A stretch of DNA of 32,084 nucleotides, taken from assembly GCA_944326615.1 (NCBI GenBank), contig CALVEO010000023.1:1-32084 (forward strand). Reading direction: 5' to 3'. The notes under the pieces are model-generated. The model saw only the letters and a program-made list of their open reading frames with translations. It ran no database searches and was not told where the DNA came from. Position numbers and translations under genes: made by a program. The DNA is from Candidatus Gastranaerophilales bacterium (lineage in GTDB: Bacteria; Cyanobacteriota; Vampirovibrionia; Gastranaerophilales; Gastranaerophilaceae). Shown piece after piece: positions 531 to 29,283 of the stretch; within the stretch, counting starts at the first letter, position 1, and each line of letters begins with the position of its first letter.

Positions 531-1163
531 ATGAAAATAGATATTGACAAAATTGTAGAACTTTTAATTGATGCAAAACAGCCAAGACGTGAATTTGTAC
601 AGCTTATGGAAGAATTTAAAAATCCATATCTTGTATTGATAGCCTGCATTTTAAGCTTAAGGACCAATGATCTTACGACATATCCTGCTACACTCAGAAT
701 GCTTGAAATCGGACGCGAGCCAAAAGATTTTGCATACTGTAATGTGGAAAAACTTGAAAAAGCGATTTATCCTGTCGGTTTTTATAAAAACAAAGCAAGA
801 CAAATTATAGAATTGTCAAAAATTATAGTAGAACAGTTAGATAATAAAGTTCCTCATACAATCGAAGAATTAATAAAATTCAATGGTGTCGGAAGAAAGA
901 CTGCAAATTTGGTTCTGGCCAAAGGTTTTGGAATTCCCGCAATATGTGTAGATGTCCACGTTCATAGAATTTGCAACCGCTTAGGATATGTAAAAACAAA
1001 AAATCCGGAAGAAACAGAATTCGCCCTTAGAGAAAAATTACCGAAAAAATACTGGCTTGATATTAATACACTCCTAGTAACGCATGGACAAAATGTCTGC
1101 AAGCCTCAAAAACCAATGTGTAGTTCGTGCCCGATAAAAGATTATTGCTGTAAAATAATTTAA
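531..1163 (+). CDS. nth: Endonuclease III-type DNA glycosylase/AP lyase
   Basis: Base-excision repair enzyme that removes oxidised pyrimidines and cleaves the abasic site. The 210-aa protein is the usual family length. It has the helix-hairpin-helix with the catalytic lysine (K123 in GVGRKTAN), the catalytic aspartate (D141 in VDVHVHRI), and the C-terminal [4Fe-4S] ligand set C190-x6-C197-x2-C200-x5-C206. The first helical motif reads LSLRTND rather than the enterobacterial LSAQATD, a variant that resembles archaeal-type endonuclease III, so exact substrate preference is open. The ATG at 531 directly follows a TATAAT box and has no Shine-Dalgarno, so the message may be leaderless. It is divergent from locus P1, sharing the spacer 424-530. 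The function call is strong; the leaderless start is inference. Confidence 0.93.
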   Translation: MKIDIDKIVELLIDAKQPRREFVQLMEEFKNPYLVLIACILSLRTNDLTTYPATLRMLEIGREPKDFAYCNVEKLEKAIYPVGFYKNKARQIIELSKIIVEQLDNKVPHTIEELIKFNGVGRKTANLVLAKGFGIPAICVDVHVHRICNRLGYVKTKNPEETEFALREKLPKKYWLDINTLLVTHGQNVCKPQKPMCSSCPIKDYCCKII

Positions 1164-1235
1164 GTTAAAATTTATTTACATAATAGCAAAAATTTTTATT
1201 ACAAATTTTATAAAAATACGAAAAGGAGAATAAAT

Positions 1236-1739
1236 ATGAAAATTCAAAAAATTATCAGTGCAATAAAAGCTGACAGAGCAAAAAATTTTGCTTCGCGTAA
1301 TGAAGCAATGTTAAATAATTACATAAGAATTCACGATAAAAATACCTACGGAGATTCTTATGAACAAATGAAACAAGCGCGTGAAGTAATTGCACATTAT
1401 GCTCAACGAGAAGGAATTTCTGTTGATATTTACAGCGCAAGTAGATTAGTTGCAGATGATCCGGCTGCTCCTTCATTTATAAAAGATTACGCTTCTGACA
1501 AACTTAATGTAGTAGTTCAAAATAGTCTAACAGGCGAATCTGCCAACAAAATTGTCAATGCAAATACAAAAAGCACTTTACCCAAGATGGCAAAAACAAC
1601 AGTGATACTCCCAATTAAAGGCGAAGATATTGAAATCGCAAGACATGGTATCAGAAGAACAGAAGATTCTTTCTTAAGAAACCTTTACCGTTCAATTGAA
1701 GAACTTACAAGAAACGTAACAGGAAAAAATTCTAAGTAA
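1236..1739 (+). CDS. Hypothetical protein, 167 aa
   Basis: I do not recognise this protein. It is soluble-looking, with no signal peptide or membrane segment, and rich in Lys, Asn and Ala. The N-terminal half is predicted helical (KIISAIKADRAKNF, YEQMKQAREVIAHYAQ); the C-terminal part contains a short strand-like piece (TTVILPIKG) and a basic helix. The ATG has a clear Shine-Dalgarno (AAAGGAGAATAAAT before it). It follows nth by 72 bases and ends 18 bases before a strong terminator, so it is either the second gene of an nth operon or a single gene. Probably lineage-specific. Confidence 0.8.
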   Translation: MKIQKIISAIKADRAKNFASRNEAMLNNYIRIHDKNTYGDSYEQMKQAREVIAHYAQREGISVDIYSASRLVADDPAAPSFIKDYASDKLNVVVQNSLTGESANKIVNANTKSTLPKMAKTTVILPIKGEDIEIARHGIRRTEDSFLRNLYRSIEELTRNVTGKNSK

Positions 1740-1757
1740 AATTCAGAGGTCATAATA

Positions 1758-1803
1758 AAAAACATCATCTGACATCATCTTCACACACAGATGATGTTTT
1801 TTT
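1758..1803 (+). terminator. Rho-independent terminator after the 1236-1739 gene
   Basis: Stem AACATCATCTG (1761-1771) pairs with CAGATGATGTT (1788-1798), followed by a run of T to 1803. It separates the nth group from the hydrogenase operon. Confidence 0.9.
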
Positions 1804-1850
1804 ATTAAAAAGCTTGATTTCAAAAGGCTCTTGTGTCATAATTCTGTTAA

Positions 1851-1891
1851 GATTGTATATATTATTTACCTTTTCTATTATTTATACAATC
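1851..1891. promoter_or_regulatory. Inverted repeat upstream of the hydrogenase operon
   Basis: GATTGTATA (1851-1859) and TATACAATC (1883-1891) form a perfect 9-bp inverted repeat with a 23-bp spacer, 34 bp before the hydC start. A TTGTGT box at 1831-1836 could be a -35 element with a TATATA-like -10 inside the left arm. The position suits an operator for a redox-responsive repressor. It does not match the usual Rex box closely, so the regulator is unknown. Confidence 0.4.
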
Positions 1892-1924
1892 GGGGTTAGT
1901 CAGACAAATACATAGGAGTTCGAA

Positions 1925-2419
1925 ATGAGTGTAGAAAGCTCTCATAAAATCGATACATCAAAGTTAGATGAAATTATGGCAGAATATGACTATAAAAAAT
2001 CTAATCTGATTGCGATTTTACAGAAAGTACAGGAAGTTTACCGGTATCTTCCTGAAGATGCAATGATTTATATCGGAACTAAGATGGAAGGTTTATCACC
2101 TGCAACAGTTTTTGGAGTTGCAACATTTTATGCACAATTTTCTCTTGAGCCAAAAGGAAAATACGAAATTAAAGTGTGTGACGGAACAGCATGTCATGTT
2201 AGAGGATCTATGCCTGTTCTCAACGCAATAAGAGCAAAATTAAATATACCGGCAGGCCAGTTAACAAGCGAAAACGGCCTATTCTCCCTTGAAACAGTAA
2301 GCTGTTTAGGTGCCTGCGGACTTGCACCGGTTGTCGTTATAAACGATAAAGTTTATCCTCAAATGACCTCTGATGCTATTACCATAGTGTTAGATACAAT
2401 TATGAAAGGGGAAAACTAA
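1925..2419 (+). CDS. hydC: [FeFe]-hydrogenase NuoE-like subunit (HydC/HndA)
   Basis: The 164-aa thioredoxin-like [2Fe-2S] subunit of a trimeric NAD-linked [FeFe] hydrogenase. Ligands are visible as C85-x4-C90 (CDGTACH) and C127-x3-C131 (SCLGAC). An N-terminal helical region (residues 10-70) is typical of NuoE/HndA. Its cluster is thought to take part in electron transfer around the flavin subunit. The start has an upstream AGGAG (1914-1918). The stop codon overlaps the ATG of hydB by one base (TAATG), implying translational coupling. Homology to complex I NuoE is real, but the adjacent H-cluster subunit makes hydrogenase the right assignment. Confidence 0.93.
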   Translation: MSVESSHKIDTSKLDEIMAEYDYKKSNLIAILQKVQEVYRYLPEDAMIYIGTKMEGLSPATVFGVATFYAQFSLEPKGKYEIKVCDGTACHVRGSMPVLNAIRAKLNIPAGQLTSENGLFSLETVSCLGACGLAPVVVINDKVYPQMTSDAITIVLDTIMKGEN

Positions 2420-4281
2420 TGGAAAAAACAGCATTAAATATTAATATACAGGAAGAACAAAAAAAAGCTAAAGATATTATAACAAATCAGGGATTGAGAG
2501 TTCTTGTATGCGCCGGAACAGGATGCGTGGCAAATGGTTCTTTAAAAGTTATTGAAAAATTTAAAGAACTAGGTGCAGATGTTTCAACACTTACAGATTA
2601 CGACAAAATGACAATTGTTCCGACAGGATGTCATGGTTTTTGTGAACAGGGTGTTCTTGTCGTGATTCCCGATAAACATGTAACTTATGTGAAAGTTAAA
2701 GAAAAAGATGTTGAAGAAATTTATGAAAGCCACATCAAAAACGACAAACCTGTCGAAAGACTTTTGTATGTCGACCCGAAAACAAAAGAACGGGTATTGG
2801 ATGATGAACATATAAATTTCTATGCAAAACAAACAAGAACAGCTCTTGCAAATTGTGGAAACATTGATGCTGAAAGTATTGATGAAGCTATTGCAGTCAG
2901 AGGTTATGAAGCTCTTTCTAAAGTTCTTGAAGAAAACAACCCTGATGCAGTCATTGATACAATTGAAAAATCAGGTTTAAGAGGCAGAGGCGGAGGAGGT
3001 TTCCCGACAGGCCGCAAATGGAGATTTACAGCCGCAAATAGAGGCGGAAAATCTTACATTGTCTGCAACGGCGATGAAGGTGATCCGGGTGCATTTATGG
3101 ACAGATCCGTTATGGAAGGCGACCCGCATAAACTTCTCGAAGGCATGGCAATTGCAGCTTTTGCTATTGGCGCTGATGAGGGCTATATATACGTAAGAGC
3201 TGAATATCCGCTTGCTATTAAACGTTTGAGAAAAGCAATAAAAGATGCAGAGGAAAGAAACTGCTTAGGCAAAAATATTATGGGAAGTGATTTTTCACTT
3301 GAAATTCATATTAAAGAAGGTGCAGGCGCGTTTGTCTGCGGTGAAGAAACTGCTCTTATAGCATCTATCGAAGGCGAACGCGGAATGCCGAGACCCAAAC
3401 CGCCGTTTCCGGCAAACAAAGGTTTGTTTGGCAGACCGACTTTGATTAACAACGTTGAAACACTTGCCAATGTGCCTTTAATTATACTAAAAGGAGCAGA
3501 CTGGTTTGCCTCTATGGGTACAGAAACCTCTAAAGGCACAAAAACATTTGCTCTTACGGGAGAAGTTAATAATACAGGCTTAATAGAAGTTCCGATGGGT
3601 ACTACTTTGAGAGAAATCGTTTTTGATATCGGCGGCGGAATGAGAGACGGCAAAAAATTTAAAGCCGTACAAATAGGTGGTCCTTCTGGCGGCTGCTTAA
3701 CAGAAGAACATCTTGACATACCGATGGATTACGATAATCTAATCAAAGCCGGCGCAATGGTAGGTTCAGGCGGACTTGTCGTAATGAGCGACAAAACATG
3801 TATTGTCGAAGTTGCAAGATTCTTTATGAATTTTACACAGCACGAAAGCTGCGGGAAATGCGTTCCTTGTCGTGAAGGGACTAAAAATATGCTGAAAATC
3901 CTTGAGAAAATTGTTGCCGGAAAAGGCGAGATGAAGGATTTAGATACTCTTGAAGAACTTGCACACGCTGTTAAGGACGGTTCGCTCTGCGGACTCGGCA
4001 AAACCGCACCTAACCCGGTTCTTTCAACGTTGAAATACTTTAGAGATGAATATATTGCGCATATTAAAGATAAAAAATGTCCGGCAGGTGTATGTACGGC
4101 AATGAAAAAGCTCGTAATCAACGAATCTGCCTGCAGAGGATGTACAAAATGCGCAAGAATTTGTCCTGTCGGTGCAATAGAGGGAACTATCAAACATCCA
4201 CACCATATTAATCAGGATAAATGTATTAAATGTGAAGCTTGTATGCAAAACTGCCCGTTTAAGGCAATAGTATTGGAGTGA
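2419..4281 (+). CDS. hydB: [FeFe]-hydrogenase NuoF-like flavin/NADH subunit (HydB/HndC)
   Basis: 620 aa, with domains in this order. An N-terminal thioredoxin-like [2Fe-2S] domain (C31-x4-C36, C71-x3-C75) corresponds to HndB, fused here as in Thermotoga HydB. Next comes the NuoF core with the NADH/FMN glycine-rich loop (GLRGRGGGGFPTG, near residue 190) and CNGDEGDPGAF. Then an SLBB-like region and a [4Fe-4S] site (ESCGKCVPCREG plus a later Cys in SLCGLG). A C-terminal two-[4Fe-4S] ferredoxin follows (CRGCTKCARICP, CIKCEACMQNCP). It exchanges electrons between NADH and ferredoxin/hydrogenase, and in known trimeric enzymes is the likely site of flavin-based bifurcation. Translationally coupled to hydC. 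Whether this enzyme truly bifurcates cannot be read from sequence alone. Confidence 0.94.
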   Translation: MEKTALNINIQEEQKKAKDIITNQGLRVLVCAGTGCVANGSLKVIEKFKELGADVSTLTDYDKMTIVPTGCHGFCEQGVLVVIPDKHVTYVKVKEKDVEEIYESHIKNDKPVERLLYVDPKTKERVLDDEHINFYAKQTRTALANCGNIDAESIDEAIAVRGYEALSKVLEENNPDAVIDTIEKSGLRGRGGGGFPTGRKWRFTAANRGGKSYIVCNGDEGDPGAFMDRSVMEGDPHKLLEGMAIAAFAIGADEGYIYVRAEYPLAIKRLRKAIKDAEERNCLGKNIMGSDFSLEIHIKEGAGAFVCGEETALIASIEGERGMPRPKPPFPANKGLFGRPTLINNVETLANVPLIILKGADWFASMGTETSKGTKTFALTGEVNNTGLIEVPMGTTLREIVFDIGGGMRDGKKFKAVQIGGPSGGCLTEEHLDIPMDYDNLIKAGAMVGSGGLVVMSDKTCIVEVARFFMNFTQHESCGKCVPCREGTKNMLKILEKIVAGKGEMKDLDTLEELAHAVKDGSLCGLGKTAPNPVLSTLKYFRDEYIAHIKDKKCPAGVCTAMKKLVINESACRGCTKCARICPVGAIEGTIKHPHHINQDKCIKCEACMQNCPFKAIVLE

Positions 4282-17431: not shown

Positions 17432-18981
17432 TTATTTGCATCTGGTTTTCGTGTTCCAATCCAAATCATCACAGTGCAGATAATCCATGTTTTCATTTTG
17501 CAGCACCCATGCAGTACATCCGCGCCCGTTATCTTTATTTGATGTCCCTATATTACACAATTGTTTGAAATATGTCGGAGTTTGAGTCGGACTACCCTGC
17601 GGGACAATTTTGGCGGGTGAAAAGTAAATTTGAAAATAAAATGTATCTTTTCCCAAAGTACATTTACCTTTATTCATACATTTATTAAGTGAAACATAAA
17701 TATCCATCATTCCGTTTTCTATCCATCCGGAAGAAATCACTGTACCATCAGCTAAAACTATATTTGGTATGGCTCGATTTGTAGATATAGTATTTCTAAA
17801 GGTTCCATCTAATGAGTAAGAATCATATTCATAACGAATATATTGGTTAGCTTTTCCACCATCAACTGATTTCATATTTTCTGCAAGGTAATTGAAAACA
17901 GTGTATGCACTTGTATAATCTGTAATAGCATTTCCCTCATCATCGTCTCCTATATGTGTCTTGCTAAGACTCCAGCTTTCAGCATCCCCGTATTTGTTGA
18001 TAGCCATTAAATAAGCCTGCTGCATTGTAGAATACGCTTTTTTTAATTGTGCAACAGTTTGTTTTTCTCTATGATTTGCAATCAGAGATGGCATAGTCAT
18101 TGCCGCGACAACCCCTATAATTCCTAAGGTGATCAACACCTCCGCTAATGTAAACGCGCAGCGTTTACAAGGTGAATAAGAGAATAAGTGAATAGGTGAA
18201 TAAGTTCGTTTCGAGGAATTAGTGTCATGCTGAACTTGTTTCAGCATCTTATAATTACTTACTTCCTCTCCTGTGGGAGAGGGTTGGGGTGAGGGCTGAT
18301 TATTATATATAATTTGATTGTAGTTACTTATTCCTTCTCCCCTATGCGGCAGCGTAGCCACTGCACCCGACACCTGTGTTTTGCATGAATTTTCTATGTC
18401 ATTACGAGGGAACGTAGCCGTTCCATCCACCACTTGTGTCTTGCATAAACTTTCTATGTCATTGCGAGGGAACGTAGCCGTTCCATCCACCACTTGTGTC
18501 TTGCATAAACTTTCTATGTCATTGCGAGGAGAATGCGAAGCATTCGACGTAGTAATCTCATTAATATTACATAAATTATGAGATTGCGACGCTCCATTCT
18601 GTCGCTCGCAATGACAGTTATTAGCTTGCGGATTGGATTTACGAGAACATGCTCCCTCCCTCGGGGGAGGGCAGGGGAGAGGGTCATTATCAGAAGACCG
18701 GAGAGTCAGAGGGCAGGAAGGCAGGCTGGTTACAGAAGTTATTTTAGTGCGCAGCACAGATAATAGCTTGACCTCCTGACATCCGATCCACCGTCTGCTA
18801 TTTTGAAAACATCCAGTATCAACCCCTAATTTTTGAATAACAAACTTCTGAAACAAGTTCAGAATGACAGTTATATTAAGATCCCCTAAATAAAATTTAA
18901 AACCTGAAAACGCCCTAATGTCGCGGGTTAAGCGGCTATGCTTGCGGGGGGGGGGCAGTTCAAAGCTTCTCTAATTGTCAT
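17432..18981 (-). CDS. Mosaic prepilin-type locus P2, phase-OFF as sequenced
   Basis: The ATG at 18981 has AAGGAGG six bases upstream and a good promoter. Its frame (MTIREALNC) enters ten C (sense strand, 18946-18955) and stops after 17 codons. One extra C joins it to a frame open to 17432. Without the slip the first standard start in that frame is a TTG at 18856 with no Shine-Dalgarno. The open frame holds roughly 250 residues of repeat-derived sequence, including a 20-residue tandem repeat. A prepilin-type segment follows (CAFTLAEVLITLGIIGVVAA). Then comes a pseudopilin-like body of about 220 residues with paired Cys and the C-terminus CTAWVLQNENMDYLHC. An ATG at 18247 would give a more usual 32-residue leader with a weak Shine-Dalgarno. 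Pilin-like function is inferred from the leader motif. A long extension before the cleavage site is highly unusual. Confidence 0.6.
18361..18530 (-). repeat. 60-bp tandem repeat, nearly three copies, inside locus P2
   Basis: Units begin at 18361 (diverged), 18421 and 18481 (partial, losing identity after 18529). The last two are identical where they overlap. Each unit contains the palindrome GGAACGTAGCCGTTCC except at its ends. Sixty bases is 20 codons, so copy number changes keep the frame; the peptide repeat reads NDIESLCKTQVVDGTATFPR. Confidence 0.9.
18541..18684. repeat. 144-bp direct repeat, copy 2 (copy 1 at 1-144)
   Basis: Differs from 1-144 at three positions. Read in the same frame in both loci. 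Contains hairpins around GCGACGCTCC and the CTCCCTCCCTCGGGGGAGGG palindrome. Confidence 0.9.
18946..18955 (-). repeat. Poly-C tract (C10 in sense strand) of locus P2
   Basis: Ten G on the + strand, so ten C in the coding strand, 26 bases after the A of the ATG. Opposite polarity to the tracts of P1 and P3, coding Pro instead of Gly, but the same length and the same plus-one requirement. Confidence 0.8.
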
Positions 18982-25392: not shown

Positions 25393-25497
25393 GAGCGTGC
25401 CGCTCGACCCGTCACTTAGATGTTGCGTAAAACTTTTTCAACCTAAACTAAAGAAGGAGCGTGCCGCTCGACCTGCGACTTAGAGGTTGAGTAAAAT
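25393..25497. repeat. Imperfect direct repeat with GAGC-GCTC hairpins
   Basis: GAGCGTGCCGCTCGACC followed by a similar tail (CACTTAGATGTTG and GACTTAGAGGTTG) occurs at 25394-25424 and 25456-25487. The GAGCGTGCCGCTC hairpin is the inverse of GAGCGGCACGCTC at 23276-23288. The second copy overlaps the GH38 stop codon, so the last codons of that gene lie in repeat sequence. Confidence 0.75.
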
Positions 25498-27567
25498 AAT
25501 TGGTTGAAAGACCATGTCAATATATTTTTGATAATCTTCCGGAGCAAAAAATCCGACTGAAAATTCCGCACAATTATAGCCTAGCTGCTGGGCTTCGGGA
25601 ACTTCTATCGGCGGACCTGCAGGAGTTGAACGTGACGGGTTTTTAGGGTTGGAAATTATGCCTGTACTGCGTAAAAGCGTTACAAGCAACGATTTTTCTT
25701 TTACTTCATATTCTGTCAAGCCTTTTGTTATAACCCCGAAGCCTTGCGTACCGACATATCTCTGCATCGGTGCAAAATTTGTTTTAACTTCAATTCCTCT
25801 CACTTTTGGCAGGTGCTTTCTCATATCATATTCAGGGTCAAATTTTCTGTGTATTATTGTATTCAAATCTTCCGAAAAAGTTTCCGTAACAGGTGATTTC
25901 AGGTTAAATTTTATCTGCCAGAGCTTGTTTTTAAGCTTATTATCCCATTCTATCTTAAAGTTTACAAGTTCTCCCTGAACTTCTACATGAACATCAAAGA
26001 AGCTCGTTTTTATTATATTATTTTTGAAAGAATATATTTCTGCTTTTTCGCCTTTGTCATCTTCTACGGCGCCGAAATTGTAGGTATCGCCGTCATCTTG
26101 AAAACGGACAAATTCCATAGAAATTCTAATATCTTTGAAATTATTAGCGTTCTGTTTGTCTTGCTTTTCCCCCTCCTGGAAATCTTCTTGCTGCGCCCGC
26201 ATTAAACAGGCATGCTCCGCTTTAACCTTCTGCGGGCTTGCGCAGATTTCGGTCCTCCCTCCGGGGGAGGACATGGATTTTAATGGGGCGATATATATTT
26301 TGCCGTTTTTGACTTCAAAATTAATCTCAGGTTTTACGGCAGGTGAGTATTTAAGTGTATAAATGTCTGTAAAATCTTCTGTTACAGGAATTTTTTGAGT
26401 GTCATAGAGAAGCGGATTTTCAACACCAAAGTTTTTTGAGATAACCTTGTATTCAGGCAGGAGATCTTTGCTTTCCATTATTGGAGTTTTGAAATTGTAT
26501 CTAAGCCTTAATTCTTCAATAATTGTGTTGGCGATTTGTATAATTTTTTCATAGCGTGTATTATTTTCCCTGTGGACTAAATCTGTACTACAGCCGTAAA
26601 TCCCGTCGTGTGCCTGATTTTTCAAAAGAAGTTTATACGCATATTCTATAATTGCATCATATTGTGAGCCGTATTTTTTCTGCAGTTTGTTAGCCTGTTC
26701 AAGTAAATATGTACATTTTACGTTGTATTGCTTAAGTTTCATTCTTGCAGAAAATGAGCCTTGAAGAATAAATGTAAGGCTGTTATCTCGAAGTTCATCA
26801 TTCCATTCAAAGGTTTTAAAATTATCTTTTACCAGTTCAAAATATTCAAACGGATTAGATAATTTTATTTCGTAATCTTCAAGCAGACTGTTGACTTTGT
26901 ATATTTGTTCTGTGATATCGGGTTCAACTCCGAGATGATCAGCACCTATTGGCAACAACAAATAATCCTTTGATTTTGCGGCGATTTTATCAAGATTGCC
27001 TTTGAGCCATTCGGCTTTCTGTTCAATGGTTAAAGCCGAAGAAAAAATATCCATAAAATATCCGCGGATAAGATTGACTGTATCAATTCCGTTAAATCTA
27101 AATTCTGACGGTATATCTCCGCATCCTCTCCAGACAACACATTTATCAATGCCGAATTTTTTTAGTAACTGCGGAACATTTTTGCTGTGGCCGAAAGTGT
27201 CCGCAAAATACCCGATAAAATCAGTGCAGCCAAAATCTTTTGCAATTTTTAAACCGATTTCAAGATTTTTTTCAAAAACGGTTCTGTCTGTCAGAAATTC
27301 GTCAATAAGTGTATAAAAAGGGCCTATAAAGAGTTTTTTTTCTGCAATGAATTTCCTGATTAATTTTTCTTTTTCCGGTCTTATTTCTAAATAATCAAGA
27401 AGCGCACCGACCTGTCCGTCAAAATAAAATGACGGAATTTTATTATTTTCAAGAAGTTCAAGAACATTATCAAAAACTCTCAAAAGCCTGAGCCTGAAAA
27501 CTTCAAATTCCCTGTACCATTCCCTATCCCAGTGGGTGTGTAAATATGCAATAACCATTTTTTTCAT
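25480..27567 (-). CDS. Family 38 alpha-mannosidase-like glycoside hydrolase
   Basis: 695 aa from the ATG at 27567; no clear Shine-Dalgarno, and the ATG at 27558 is an alternative. The GH38 N-terminal domain starts at once with HTHWDREWYR (zinc-binding His and Asp). The nucleophile region GYFADTFGHS is near residues 118-127 and NQAHDGIYGCSTD near 320. The middle domain and a GH38 C-terminal domain follow (LLVTLLRSTGIIS, PEAQQLGYNCAEF). It should trim alpha-mannosides. No signal peptide, so it acts in the cytoplasm. About residues 431-468 are a GC-rich, palindromic, repeat-like segment that looks inserted between two structural strands without breaking the frame. Confidence 0.88.
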   Translation of the reverse strand: MKKMVIAYLHTHWDREWYREFEVFRLRLLRVFDNVLELLENNKIPSFYFDGQVGALLDYLEIRPEKEKLIRKFIAEKKLFIGPFYTLIDEFLTDRTVFEKNLEIGLKIAKDFGCTDFIGYFADTFGHSKNVPQLLKKFGIDKCVVWRGCGDIPSEFRFNGIDTVNLIRGYFMDIFSSALTIEQKAEWLKGNLDKIAAKSKDYLLLPIGADHLGVEPDITEQIYKVNSLLEDYEIKLSNPFEYFELVKDNFKTFEWNDELRDNSLTFILQGSFSARMKLKQYNVKCTYLLEQANKLQKKYGSQYDAIIEYAYKLLLKNQAHDGIYGCSTDLVHRENNTRYEKIIQIANTIIEELRLRYNFKTPIMESKDLLPEYKVISKNFGVENPLLYDTQKIPVTEDFTDIYTLKYSPAVKPEINFEVKNGKIYIAPLKSMSSPGGRTEICASPQKVKAEHACLMRAQQEDFQEGEKQDKQNANNFKDIRISMEFVRFQDDGDTYNFGAVEDDKGEKAEIYSFKNNIIKTSFFDVHVEVQGELVNFKIEWDNKLKNKLWQIKFNLKSPVTETFSEDLNTIIHRKFDPEYDMRKHLPKVRGIEVKTNFAPMQRYVGTQGFGVITKGLTEYEVKEKSLLVTLLRSTGIISNPKNPSRSTPAGPPIEVPEAQQLGYNCAEFSVGFFAPEDYQKYIDMVFQPIILLNL
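26165..26274. repeat. In-frame palindromic insertion inside the GH38 gene
   Basis: About 110 bases, clearly richer in G+C than the gene around it. Contains GTCCTCC/GGAGGAC (26252-26258, 26266-26272) and CTGCGC...GCGCAG (26191-26196, 26240-26245) hairpins. The first resembles the CTCCCTCC..GGGGGAGG palindrome of the prepilin loci. The encoded piece (MSSPGGRTEICASPQK and on) looks unlike GH38 sequence. Confidence 0.6.
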
Positions 27568-27608
27568 AATCAATTTTTAACATATTTCTTTATATAGTGC
27601 AAAAATTT

Positions 27609-27658: not shown

Positions 27659-29283
27659 ATGTTCAAACAAAAAACAAGAGCTTCGGGGGGGGGGCACTTT
27701 TAGCTAACGGAAGGGCTGTAAGTCAAGTTGTTTCCAGTAATGTCATTGCGCATTTATTGCGCAATCTTGGATTTGTCATAAAAAGATCGCGCAACAAGTA
27801 CGCGATGACAGTTCTTAATATTCAATCCCTCGTCTTTTTAGGAGAGGGTGCCAGTATATGTCAGGTATTTATTCAGATAATAGGATACTATGGCAGTAAG
27901 GCAGTAGGACGTATCGTAAAAATTTTCCCTCTCTTTGGAGAGGAATTTATCGGAGGTCAGGAACTCCGGCAGGTAAGAGATCAGGCTGGTTTAGAAGGTA
28001 GGAAGGTAAGAAGATATGAGGGTAGGCTGTTTAAGTTATTAAAAGGCTTATTTTTTGTTCCCCTCGCCCCCTTGGGGAGAGGGTTAGGGAGAGGGGCTAA
28101 CCAGGAAGATAAGTTATATAGCCGCCGGATGATCGGATGTCAAGATATCAAGCTGTTATCGGTGCTACGCACTAAAATAACTTCTTTATTCAACCTGCCT
28201 TCCTGCCCTCTGAACTTCTGTTCTTCTGATAATGACCCTCTCCCCTGCCCTCCCCCGAGGGAGGGGGCATGTGGCGGCTGGAGTGGTCCGCTTTCTTGTA
28301 ATGACAAAACAAGTTCAAGCAAGACTCAGGTGTTGGCTGGAACGGCTACGTTCCATCTCTGTTCTTCTGATTGTTACCCACCCCAGCCCTCCCTAATCAG
28401 GGAGGTAGCGCGTAAAAAGCTCCTGAAACACAGATGTCAATCTGACATTCTTAAGCCCCTGAAACAAGTTCAGGATGACCTGTTTAACTTACTGAAATCG
28501 ACTTATTCACCTATTCACTTATTTACTTATTCACTTCGTAAAAAAGCTGCCTTTACACTCGCCGAAGGTGCTACGCACGTAGTCCACTTTGACAAAATCC
28601 GTCGAGCCGCTTTCACTCTGGCGGAGGTTTTGATTACCTTAGGAATTATTGGCGTGGTGGCTGCAATGACTATGCCTGTTTTGGTTTCTAATTACAGAAA
28701 GCAGGTTGTAGAGACAAGATTGCAAAAATTTTACTCAACTGTCAATCAGGCGATTAAAATGTCAGAAGTAGATAATGGTGATAAGATGTTTTGGACGGCA
28801 GCTGATTCTGATGATTTTTTTAATAAATATTTAAAAAAATATTTGAAATATTTAAAATATGAAAATAAACGTGTAGGTACCTCAAATGACTGGAGATTAA
28901 TTTATTTAACCGATGGAAGTGCTTTCTTATTTGATTTATACGGAGTTTGGGATGACGATGGGGAGCAGACAGTTAAAACAAACGGAGGACACTTTATTTT
29001 CTGTCCTTCTGCCAAAGATTGTGAAAATGGTTCTGAGCGTAATTTATATGGAAGAAAGCAATTTGTATTTGCTTTTTGGCCTAATGAAGATGACTCTAAA
29101 TTTGGTTACCATAAAGGACGTGGTGTCGAACCTTATATGGCACACTGGGATGGTGATGAAGAAAAATTATATACTTCTTCAAAATATGGCTGTAATGAAG
29201 AATCAGGCAATAGTTTATACTGTACTGCGGTAATACAGCACAACGGCTGGAAAATTCCTAAAAATTATCCGTATAGGCTCTAA
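27659..29283 (+). CDS. Mosaic prepilin-type locus P3, phase-OFF as sequenced
   Basis: The ATG at 27659 has AAAGGAG eight bases upstream and codes MFKQKTRAS, then G10 (27685-27694) and a stop after 14 codons. One extra G joins it to the frame open to 29283 (about 541 codons). In the unslipped frame the first start is a TTG at 27757 with no Shine-Dalgarno. No ATG, GTG or TTG lies in frame close before the prepilin motif; the nearest ATG is 28129. About 300 repeat-derived residues precede a doubled motif, AFTLAEGATHV then AFTLAEVLITLGIIGVVAA. A pseudopilin-like body of about 220 residues follows, ending IQHNGWKIPKNYPYRL. Repeat modules match P1 (27695-27930) and P2 (28120-28270) in the same frame. 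Alternative: a decayed gene with start and body separated by repeats. Confidence 0.6.
27685..27694 (+). repeat. Poly-G tract (G10) of locus P3
   Basis: Ten G, 26 bases after the A of the ATG. From the tract onward (CACTTTTAGCT...) the sequence is homologous to P1; upstream of it the two loci are unrelated. Confidence 0.85.
27742..27809. repeat. 68-bp composite palindromic repeat, copy 2
   Basis: Same architecture and length as 261-328, in the equivalent place of locus P3: GTCAT, hairpin TTGCGC/GCGCAA, hairpin TCGCGC/CGCGA, ATGAC. Confidence 0.75.

Follow-up and report, generated by a model that had tools for sequence, protein, structure and literature searches.

For the short dispersed palindromes of the REP and REPIN type, the proposed mover is a nuclease with a gene of its own, RAYT. 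The palindromes described here differ from this arrangement in that their candidate nuclease is a DUF559 protein and not a Y1 tyrosine transposase, and in that they lie inside translated genes. The GTAG and CGTC tags named in the title of PMC3733652 were not seen in the family consensus. MITEs such as ERIC, NEMIS, and RUP are likewise non-autonomous, consist of a small inverted repeat, and in some cases form in-frame fusions with genes according to the available part of PMC2229807, but neither TA termini nor a target-site duplication were recognised here.

The systems closest in behaviour are the Rickettsia palindromic elements (RPEs) and the Wolbachia palindromic elements. In the available text of three papers (PMC10969869, PMC2229807, PMC3767692), RPEs are palindromic repeats located between genes or in frame within them, and the insertion site of the Rickettsia and Wolbachia elements can be common to orthologous genes. 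Protein-coding palindromes have been described from these two genera, and according to the available portion of a review, none of the mobilisers considered had been supported by experiment (PMC2229807). The 106-bp insert in a GH38 alpha-mannosidase gene of Candidatus Gastranaerophilales is a new member of this RPE-like kind. Like the elements in the three texts cited above, palindromes of its family measure about 100 bp, are situated both between genes and in frame in unrelated conserved genes, and would contribute an extra translated peptide. RPEs are dispersed palindromic or hairpin repeats of approximately 100–150 bp, a range that includes the 106-bp copy; many copies here measure 49 bp, which is the length of the core, and the long forms measure 86–106 bp. 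The in-frame location in protein-coding genes, with translation read from open frames, is shared by the GH38 gene and the other hosts. The likeness is one of behaviour, and in this sense, as dispersed in-frame palindromes, the RPE precedent named in a preliminary description of this DNA holds. Because the host lies outside the Rickettsiales, the element is classified as RPE-like and not as an RPE. A further difference is that a candidate mobilising endonuclease is bracketed by the same palindromes.

The endonuclease resembles the DUF559/Vsr-like PD-(D/E)XK and EDxHD/Vsr homing endonucleases in its conserved nuclease core, and the solved structure nearest to its domain is 3hrl. Vsr-like homing endonucleases ride in introns, as described in the available text of PMC12350094, whereas the nuclease described here is a translated domain in PriA or an M14 peptidase, or is fused to IspE; it is bounded by palindromes, and neither an intron nor an intein was recognised. 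In the literature searched, with subscription papers mostly outside its scope, no DUF559 elements with palindromic ends were found, and none in Gastranaerophilales. The papers on Gastranaerophilales that matched the term 'palindromic' were, among the matches listed, microbiome association studies throughout. On account of the relatives with an endonuclease, the family represents a new variety of mobile element, and possibly a new class.

The insert in the GH38 alpha-mannosidase gene

The features of the insert and its host gene in the window, which is the whole 32,084-nucleotide stretch of DNA that was analysed, are listed below. R1 denotes a covariance model built from A2, an alignment of 22 copies of the element.

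25480..27573, minus strand: GH38 alpha-mannosidase open reading frame, 697 aa, which holds the insert (Pfam and Foldseek)
26170..26275, minus strand: palindromic element, long form, 106 bp (cmsearch with R1, 59.3 bits, E 5e-16 in the window)
26252..26272, minus strand: first hairpin, GTCCTCCC-CCGGA-GGGAGGAC (fold; partial R1 match on the opposite strand)
26177..26250, minus strand: second hairpin, long and imperfect (fold; alignment A2 of 22 copies)
26128..26169, minus strand: lineage-specific linker KQDKQNANNFKDI, about 13 residues, outside the element family (alignment with relatives and their DNA)

The protein contains the domains Glyco_hydro_38N (81.5 bits) and Alpha-mann_mid (44.6 bits), each above the Pfam cut-off, and the top Foldseek matches of its structural model are the solved GH38 mannosidases 5kbp, 2wyh, and 3lvt. 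The preliminary description had read a GC-rich stretch with two hairpins as an insertion without frame loss. Such a stretch is present, with a GC content of 59% compared to 35% in the window, and the 697-residue frame stays open across it; its best borders are 26170–26275 in place of 26165–26274. The predicted in-frame translation, SMSSPGGRTEICASPQKVKAEHACLMRAQQEDFQEG, has about 36 residues, which is near the previous estimate of 38–45 added residues, but the gap in the alignment with most congeners is larger, at about 53 residues, because the linker KQDKQNANNFKDI of approximately 13 residues follows the element. The linker separates the element from the conserved strand ISMEFVRF.

Two hairpins are predicted for the element, whichever strand is folded. 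The second hairpin is composed of a GAAATC/GATTTC outer stem and an inner palindrome, GCGCAAGCCCGCA...TGCGGGCGCAGC, which the 49-bp short copies lack, and its long imperfect stem reads GAAATCTGCGC..GCCCGCA/TGCGGGC..AGATTTC. The RNA fold has a z-score of -2.2, and four of 200 shuffled sequences folded equally well. Since the fold is only modestly unusual (z of about -2), structure alone is insufficient, and the strong evidence is the repeat family. No family was matched by an Rfam scan of the GH38 gene region, which ruled out a known RNA family there. An intein or self-splicing intron was rejected as well, since Pfam detected no splicing domain in the proteins scanned and Rfam found no match in the GH38 gene; the 106-bp insert has neither a recognised splicing domain nor a recognised RNA catalytic core.

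Homologues of the mannosidase were found in 54 of the 58 genomes searched, including G000, the genome from which the window originates. The palindromic segment is absent from the GH38 gene of all 28 readable congeners (29 loci); the 29th congeneric locus, L038, is truncated and not readable at the insertion site. When 73 GH38 loci were scanned with the element model, a match inside the GH38 gene was obtained at the window's own locus and at none of the 72 others, among which the sole strong match, at L098, falls outside the gene. In most congeners, the sequence GKIRIG-x-VEMEFVRF continues uninterrupted through the insertion site. In the nearest clade, another linker of about 11 residues is found there, GKIYIxPLAKGGxAACSGGISMEF, and in G000 the element is accompanied by a linker of about 13 residues of its own. 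Within the clade, the loop varies in length, with short linkers of approximately 9–13 residues. Because the linkers of the nearest clade and of G000 differ, the site is a variable loop, and comparison with the closest relatives does not give a clean single insertion event. No target-site duplication was recognised at the borders of the element when the sequence was read. Pfam identified no DUF559 domain in the insert; relatives have this domain at other sites. As judged from its sequence, the segment is a small dispersed repeat that has entered a surface loop of GH38 and is probably translated as part of the enzyme, without splicing.

In the AlphaFold2 model of the mannosidase (mean pLDDT of 78; the input consisted of 30 window and locus sequences), residues 433–478 form the sole long stretch with pLDDT below 50, located between the strands 425–430 and 484–493. 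In the model, the insert thus takes the form of a disordered loop with a beta strand on either side. The dN/dS ratio of the gene, calculated for G000 and its nearest relative, is 0.08 (0.037/0.460), the corresponding values downstream of the insert are 0.032/0.489, and GH38 pairs without the insert have ratios of approximately 0.05–0.07. The ratios support the conclusion that GH38 with the insert is still under purifying selection and tolerates it, without proving it, since part of the divergence may predate the insertion.

The window contains other repeats near these features. Two 40-bp direct repeats with 88% identity are located at 25393–25496, and the second one extends into the 3' end of the mannosidase reading frame, so that the final residues of the mannosidase are repeat-derived. 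A 251-bp inverted repeat (137–387 and 27683–27933; 87% complementary) lies near both ends of the window.

Dispersed copies and their host genes

The GH38 element is matched at other sites in G000 and is 75–90% identical to longer intergenic and intragenic copies. The core of the family has a length of about 49 bp, ATGTCCTCCCCTTGAGGGAGGACCGAAATC-TTC-GATTTCGAGGAGGGG, and in the long forms of 86–106 bp, GAAATC and GATTTC enclose an additional inner palindrome. With R1, 101 matches (E up to 1e-3), including weak partial ones, were obtained in 16 of the 33 genomes of the genus, 14 of them in G000; the other 17 genomes are without any match. Across the order, matches were found in at least 48 of 192 genomes, and the matches listed all belong to one family and come from at least 10 of 45 genera; these counts are lower bounds, with up to 22 candidates scored per genome. 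The further copies that the preliminary description had called for thus exist, in many cases within the frames of other genes, and the insertion reading stands: the segment is neither conserved in all homologues nor without a second copy in related genomes.

The same description had likened one hairpin to the palindromes of the prepilin loci, which holds for a shared CCTCCC/GGGAGG stem and for nothing else of the element. The prepilin-locus palindromes at 28237–28271, 108–142, and 18648–18682 score 12.7, 10.6, and 10.1 bits with R1, and on these weak scores they were rejected as members of the same family. The prepilin-type genes (AFTLAEVLITLGIIGVVAAMTMP), at 17432–18856 (minus strand) and 27757–29283 (plus strand), have long repeat-derived open frames before the leader, which include a 60-bp tandem repeat at 18348–18529. 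In G003 and G008, palindrome copies lie within the same kind of leader frame. At five loci (L005, L053, L054, L058, and L063), copies end in AGGAGGGG or AGGTGGGT a few bases 5' of an ATG, as though lending a Shine-Dalgarno sequence to the gene that follows.

Ninety-six copies were read with their surroundings, and 40 of these are enclosed by an open frame that spans 150 amino acids or more and includes at least 35 codons on either side. By tally, 25 of the 96 fall in 12 recognised host families; approximately half of these 25 host reading frames were scanned directly, and the others are same-site orthologues elsewhere, recognised by their sequence. The ORFs of L162, L168, and L212 had no Pfam match, nor did the two reverse-frame ORFs that cross copies at L186 and L189, and all were excluded from the host-gene count. 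The HMM match spans the palindrome in ClpB, AlaRS, HydF, CoaBC, and MurF, each above the NCBIfam cut-off, and MurF contains two copies. The match also spans the palindrome in a GGPP/FPP synthase, NagA, and a FabF-like synthase, and in an MMPL transporter the copy is located just past the matched stretch. With IspE and the M14 peptidase among them, approximately a dozen conserved genes host in-frame copies. From these open frames, we infer that copies of the family are translated within host proteins.

Among 30 HydF loci read, one contains this element, one contains another palindromic insert in the same loop, and 28 contain neither. The HydF insert is not a pure addition but takes the place of about seven host loop residues beside it. 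Together with the differing linker of GH38, this indicates that the loops are often remodelled and not cleanly interrupted. The elements have a mean of 3.7 open frames, compared to 3.4 in dinucleotide shuffles and 2.6 in random 49-mers from the window; frame-openness as a special adaptation was therefore rejected, as it mostly reflects GC content. In G000, at L199 (G000:C7:6319-9367), RsmA (KsgA) and IspE are joined via a palindrome copy into one 613-aa frame (ORF 664–2502, minus strand), in which each half scores above its own NCBIfam cut-off.

DUF559 domains and palindromic flanks

DUF559 was found in 20 of the 33 genomes of the genus. The analysis used 47 full-length domains, with 11 of the 58 matches left out as fragments or weak, and the nuclease core is conserved across the 45 copies that were aligned. 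By tally, 14 of the 47 domains reside in host frames: four in PriA, directly before the Walker A motif, six in the M14 gene, and four at the N-terminus of IspE. In the M14 carboxypeptidase gene of three genomes, DUF559 lies between two inverted 49-bp copies in a single open frame; around the IspE-adjacent DUF559, two R1 copies share their orientation, whereas those of the M14 elements are inverted. An IspE-type frame of 577 aa with two DUF559 domains, one before and one inside the kinase, is present at L347 (G060:C3, 334–2064, plus strand). At L350 (G079:C2, 457–1851, plus strand), DUF559 is fused to the C-terminus of a radical SAM protein with a weak BATS-domain match.

The flanks of DUF559 were compared at 45 of the 47 loci, two having been dropped for short flanks. 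Flank pairs have a median inverted-repeat score of 20.5, compared to 10.0 for mismatched pairs (p 4e-21), and 21 of the 45 pairs exceed the 95th percentile of this control. A tree of the 47 domains unites the IspE-associated copies and the M14 copies of G003, G030, and G029 in one clade (support 0.93), whereas the M14 copies of G027 and G021 branch elsewhere. An R1-type palindrome scoring at least 40 bits and located within 200 bp accompanies all eight domains of the M14/IspE clade and none of the 39 others (Fisher p 3e-9, a value that is inflated by relatedness and is no fair probability, because the members of the clade are not phylogenetically independent). Within 250 bp of a DUF559, 11 of the 101 R1 matches were counted, with approximately 0.06 expected by chance; most palindrome copies have no endonuclease nearby. 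The association with the clade is the best evidence that palindrome and endonuclease belong to a single system. The many palindromes without a nuclease count against it, as does the fact that the only two DUF559 copies of G000 (PriA on C9, and one on C5) fall outside the M14/IspE clade.

The M14 loop is readable at 26 of 30 loci, 15 of which are empty. At three loci, an R1-type palindrome lies on both sides of DUF559, and at two, DUF559 is accompanied by a different, C-rich type of palindrome. Four loci contain the palindrome only: G000 has a 35-bp outer palindrome, and G017, G018, and G022 have the long form as in GH38. The remaining two are decayed or ambiguous. Of the 30 PriA loops, 23 are readable: 11 are empty, four have DUF559 elements, one has a remnant, and seven have another palindromic family without a nuclease. 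The same loops of M14 and PriA are thus occupied by palindrome-only and palindrome-nuclease inserts, which are in frame at every locus read. In one gut bacterial family, roughly a dozen conserved genes carry elements of this kind, and a series of sites shows the empty, palindrome-only, and palindrome-endonuclease states.

Proposed spread of the element

We regard it as probable that the element is an RPE-like, translated, non-autonomous element with a DUF559 endonuclease as its mobile partner. The mobile form would be a DUF559 (Vsr-like) endonuclease reading frame between two palindromes of the same family, situated in frame in a host, as in the M14 peptidase, or fused to one, as in IspE. The endonuclease may act on target loops and on palindrome DNA by cutting or nicking them, after which repair or copying would install the whole element or the palindrome alone. 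Selection would retain those insertions that land in frame in tolerant surface loops, and GC-rich palindromes with mostly stop-free frames would survive it after such a landing. No target-site duplication was recognised for the family, and we infer mobility, including transposition and cleavage, from sequence. The GH38 copy is probably a relic, as no DUF559 of this clade was found in G000. The way in which palindromes enter reading frames is now open to a direct test that needs only a single small nuclease and a 49-bp substrate. Mobile DNA of this kind would enlarge essential enzymes by loops and by entire nuclease domains, with no recognised splicing.

More tentatively, the elements may form a class that spreads as a translated domain. 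A palindrome-flanked DUF559 would enter, in frame, the surface loops of housekeeping proteins (PriA, M14 peptidase) or fuse to such a protein (IspE), be expressed as a host fusion, and home to the corresponding loops of relatives; derivatives with the palindrome alone, the GH38 insert among them, would be the non-autonomous form. If this is true, the class would provide a candidate type of mobiliser for RPE-like protein-coding palindromes generally.

The majority of copies are without a nearby DUF559, at 7 of the 23 readable loci the PriA loop has a further palindromic family and no endonuclease, and the available text of PMC2229807 and PMC10969869 describes RPEs and additional MITE-like repeats that lack a partner of this kind. 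These observations would fit a MITE-like palindrome moved by an unrelated transposase, for example of the Y1/REP type, with DUF559 merely settling or hitch-hiking between existing palindromes. We consider this unlikely because the palindrome type tracks the endonuclease clade (8/8 versus 0/39), even at the single M14 loop, because the flanks of DUF559 are inverted repeats well above the controls, and because palindromes lie near DUF559 far more often than chance predicts (11 versus about 0.06 within 250 bp).

The element might instead be retained for a function in the host, as an mRNA hairpin, a ribosome-binding site, or a regulatory sequence, with its presence in genes incidental. Several copies lie just 5' of start codons with the Shine-Dalgarno-like AGGAGGGG at their end (for example L005, L053, and L063), but the patchy presence, with 17 of 33 genomes of the genus lacking a match, and the empty Rfam result for the GH38 gene region make this explanation improbable, and copies within translated loops would lack such a role. 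An ordinary lineage-specific expansion of the GH38 loop, repeat-like by composition and involving no mobile insertion, would be in line with the short linkers of variable length and with the modest fold z-score. It deserves next to no credence, however, given the match to the repeat family with E 5e-16, the 75–90% identity to longer copies elsewhere, and the absence of the segment from GH38 in all readable relatives; the dispersed copies refute expansion without mobility.

In the DUF559 element of PriA, the palindrome end GGGGGAGAGGG precedes a TTG and could, as a guess from the sequence, be an internal ribosome-binding site for the nuclease. The other palindromic family of PriA, GGCAAGAAGG...CCTTCCTGCC, is in frame before the Walker A motif at L247, L249, L250, L252, L254, L261, and L264. 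A similar sequence is present in the window near 27990–28030 and 28195–28220.
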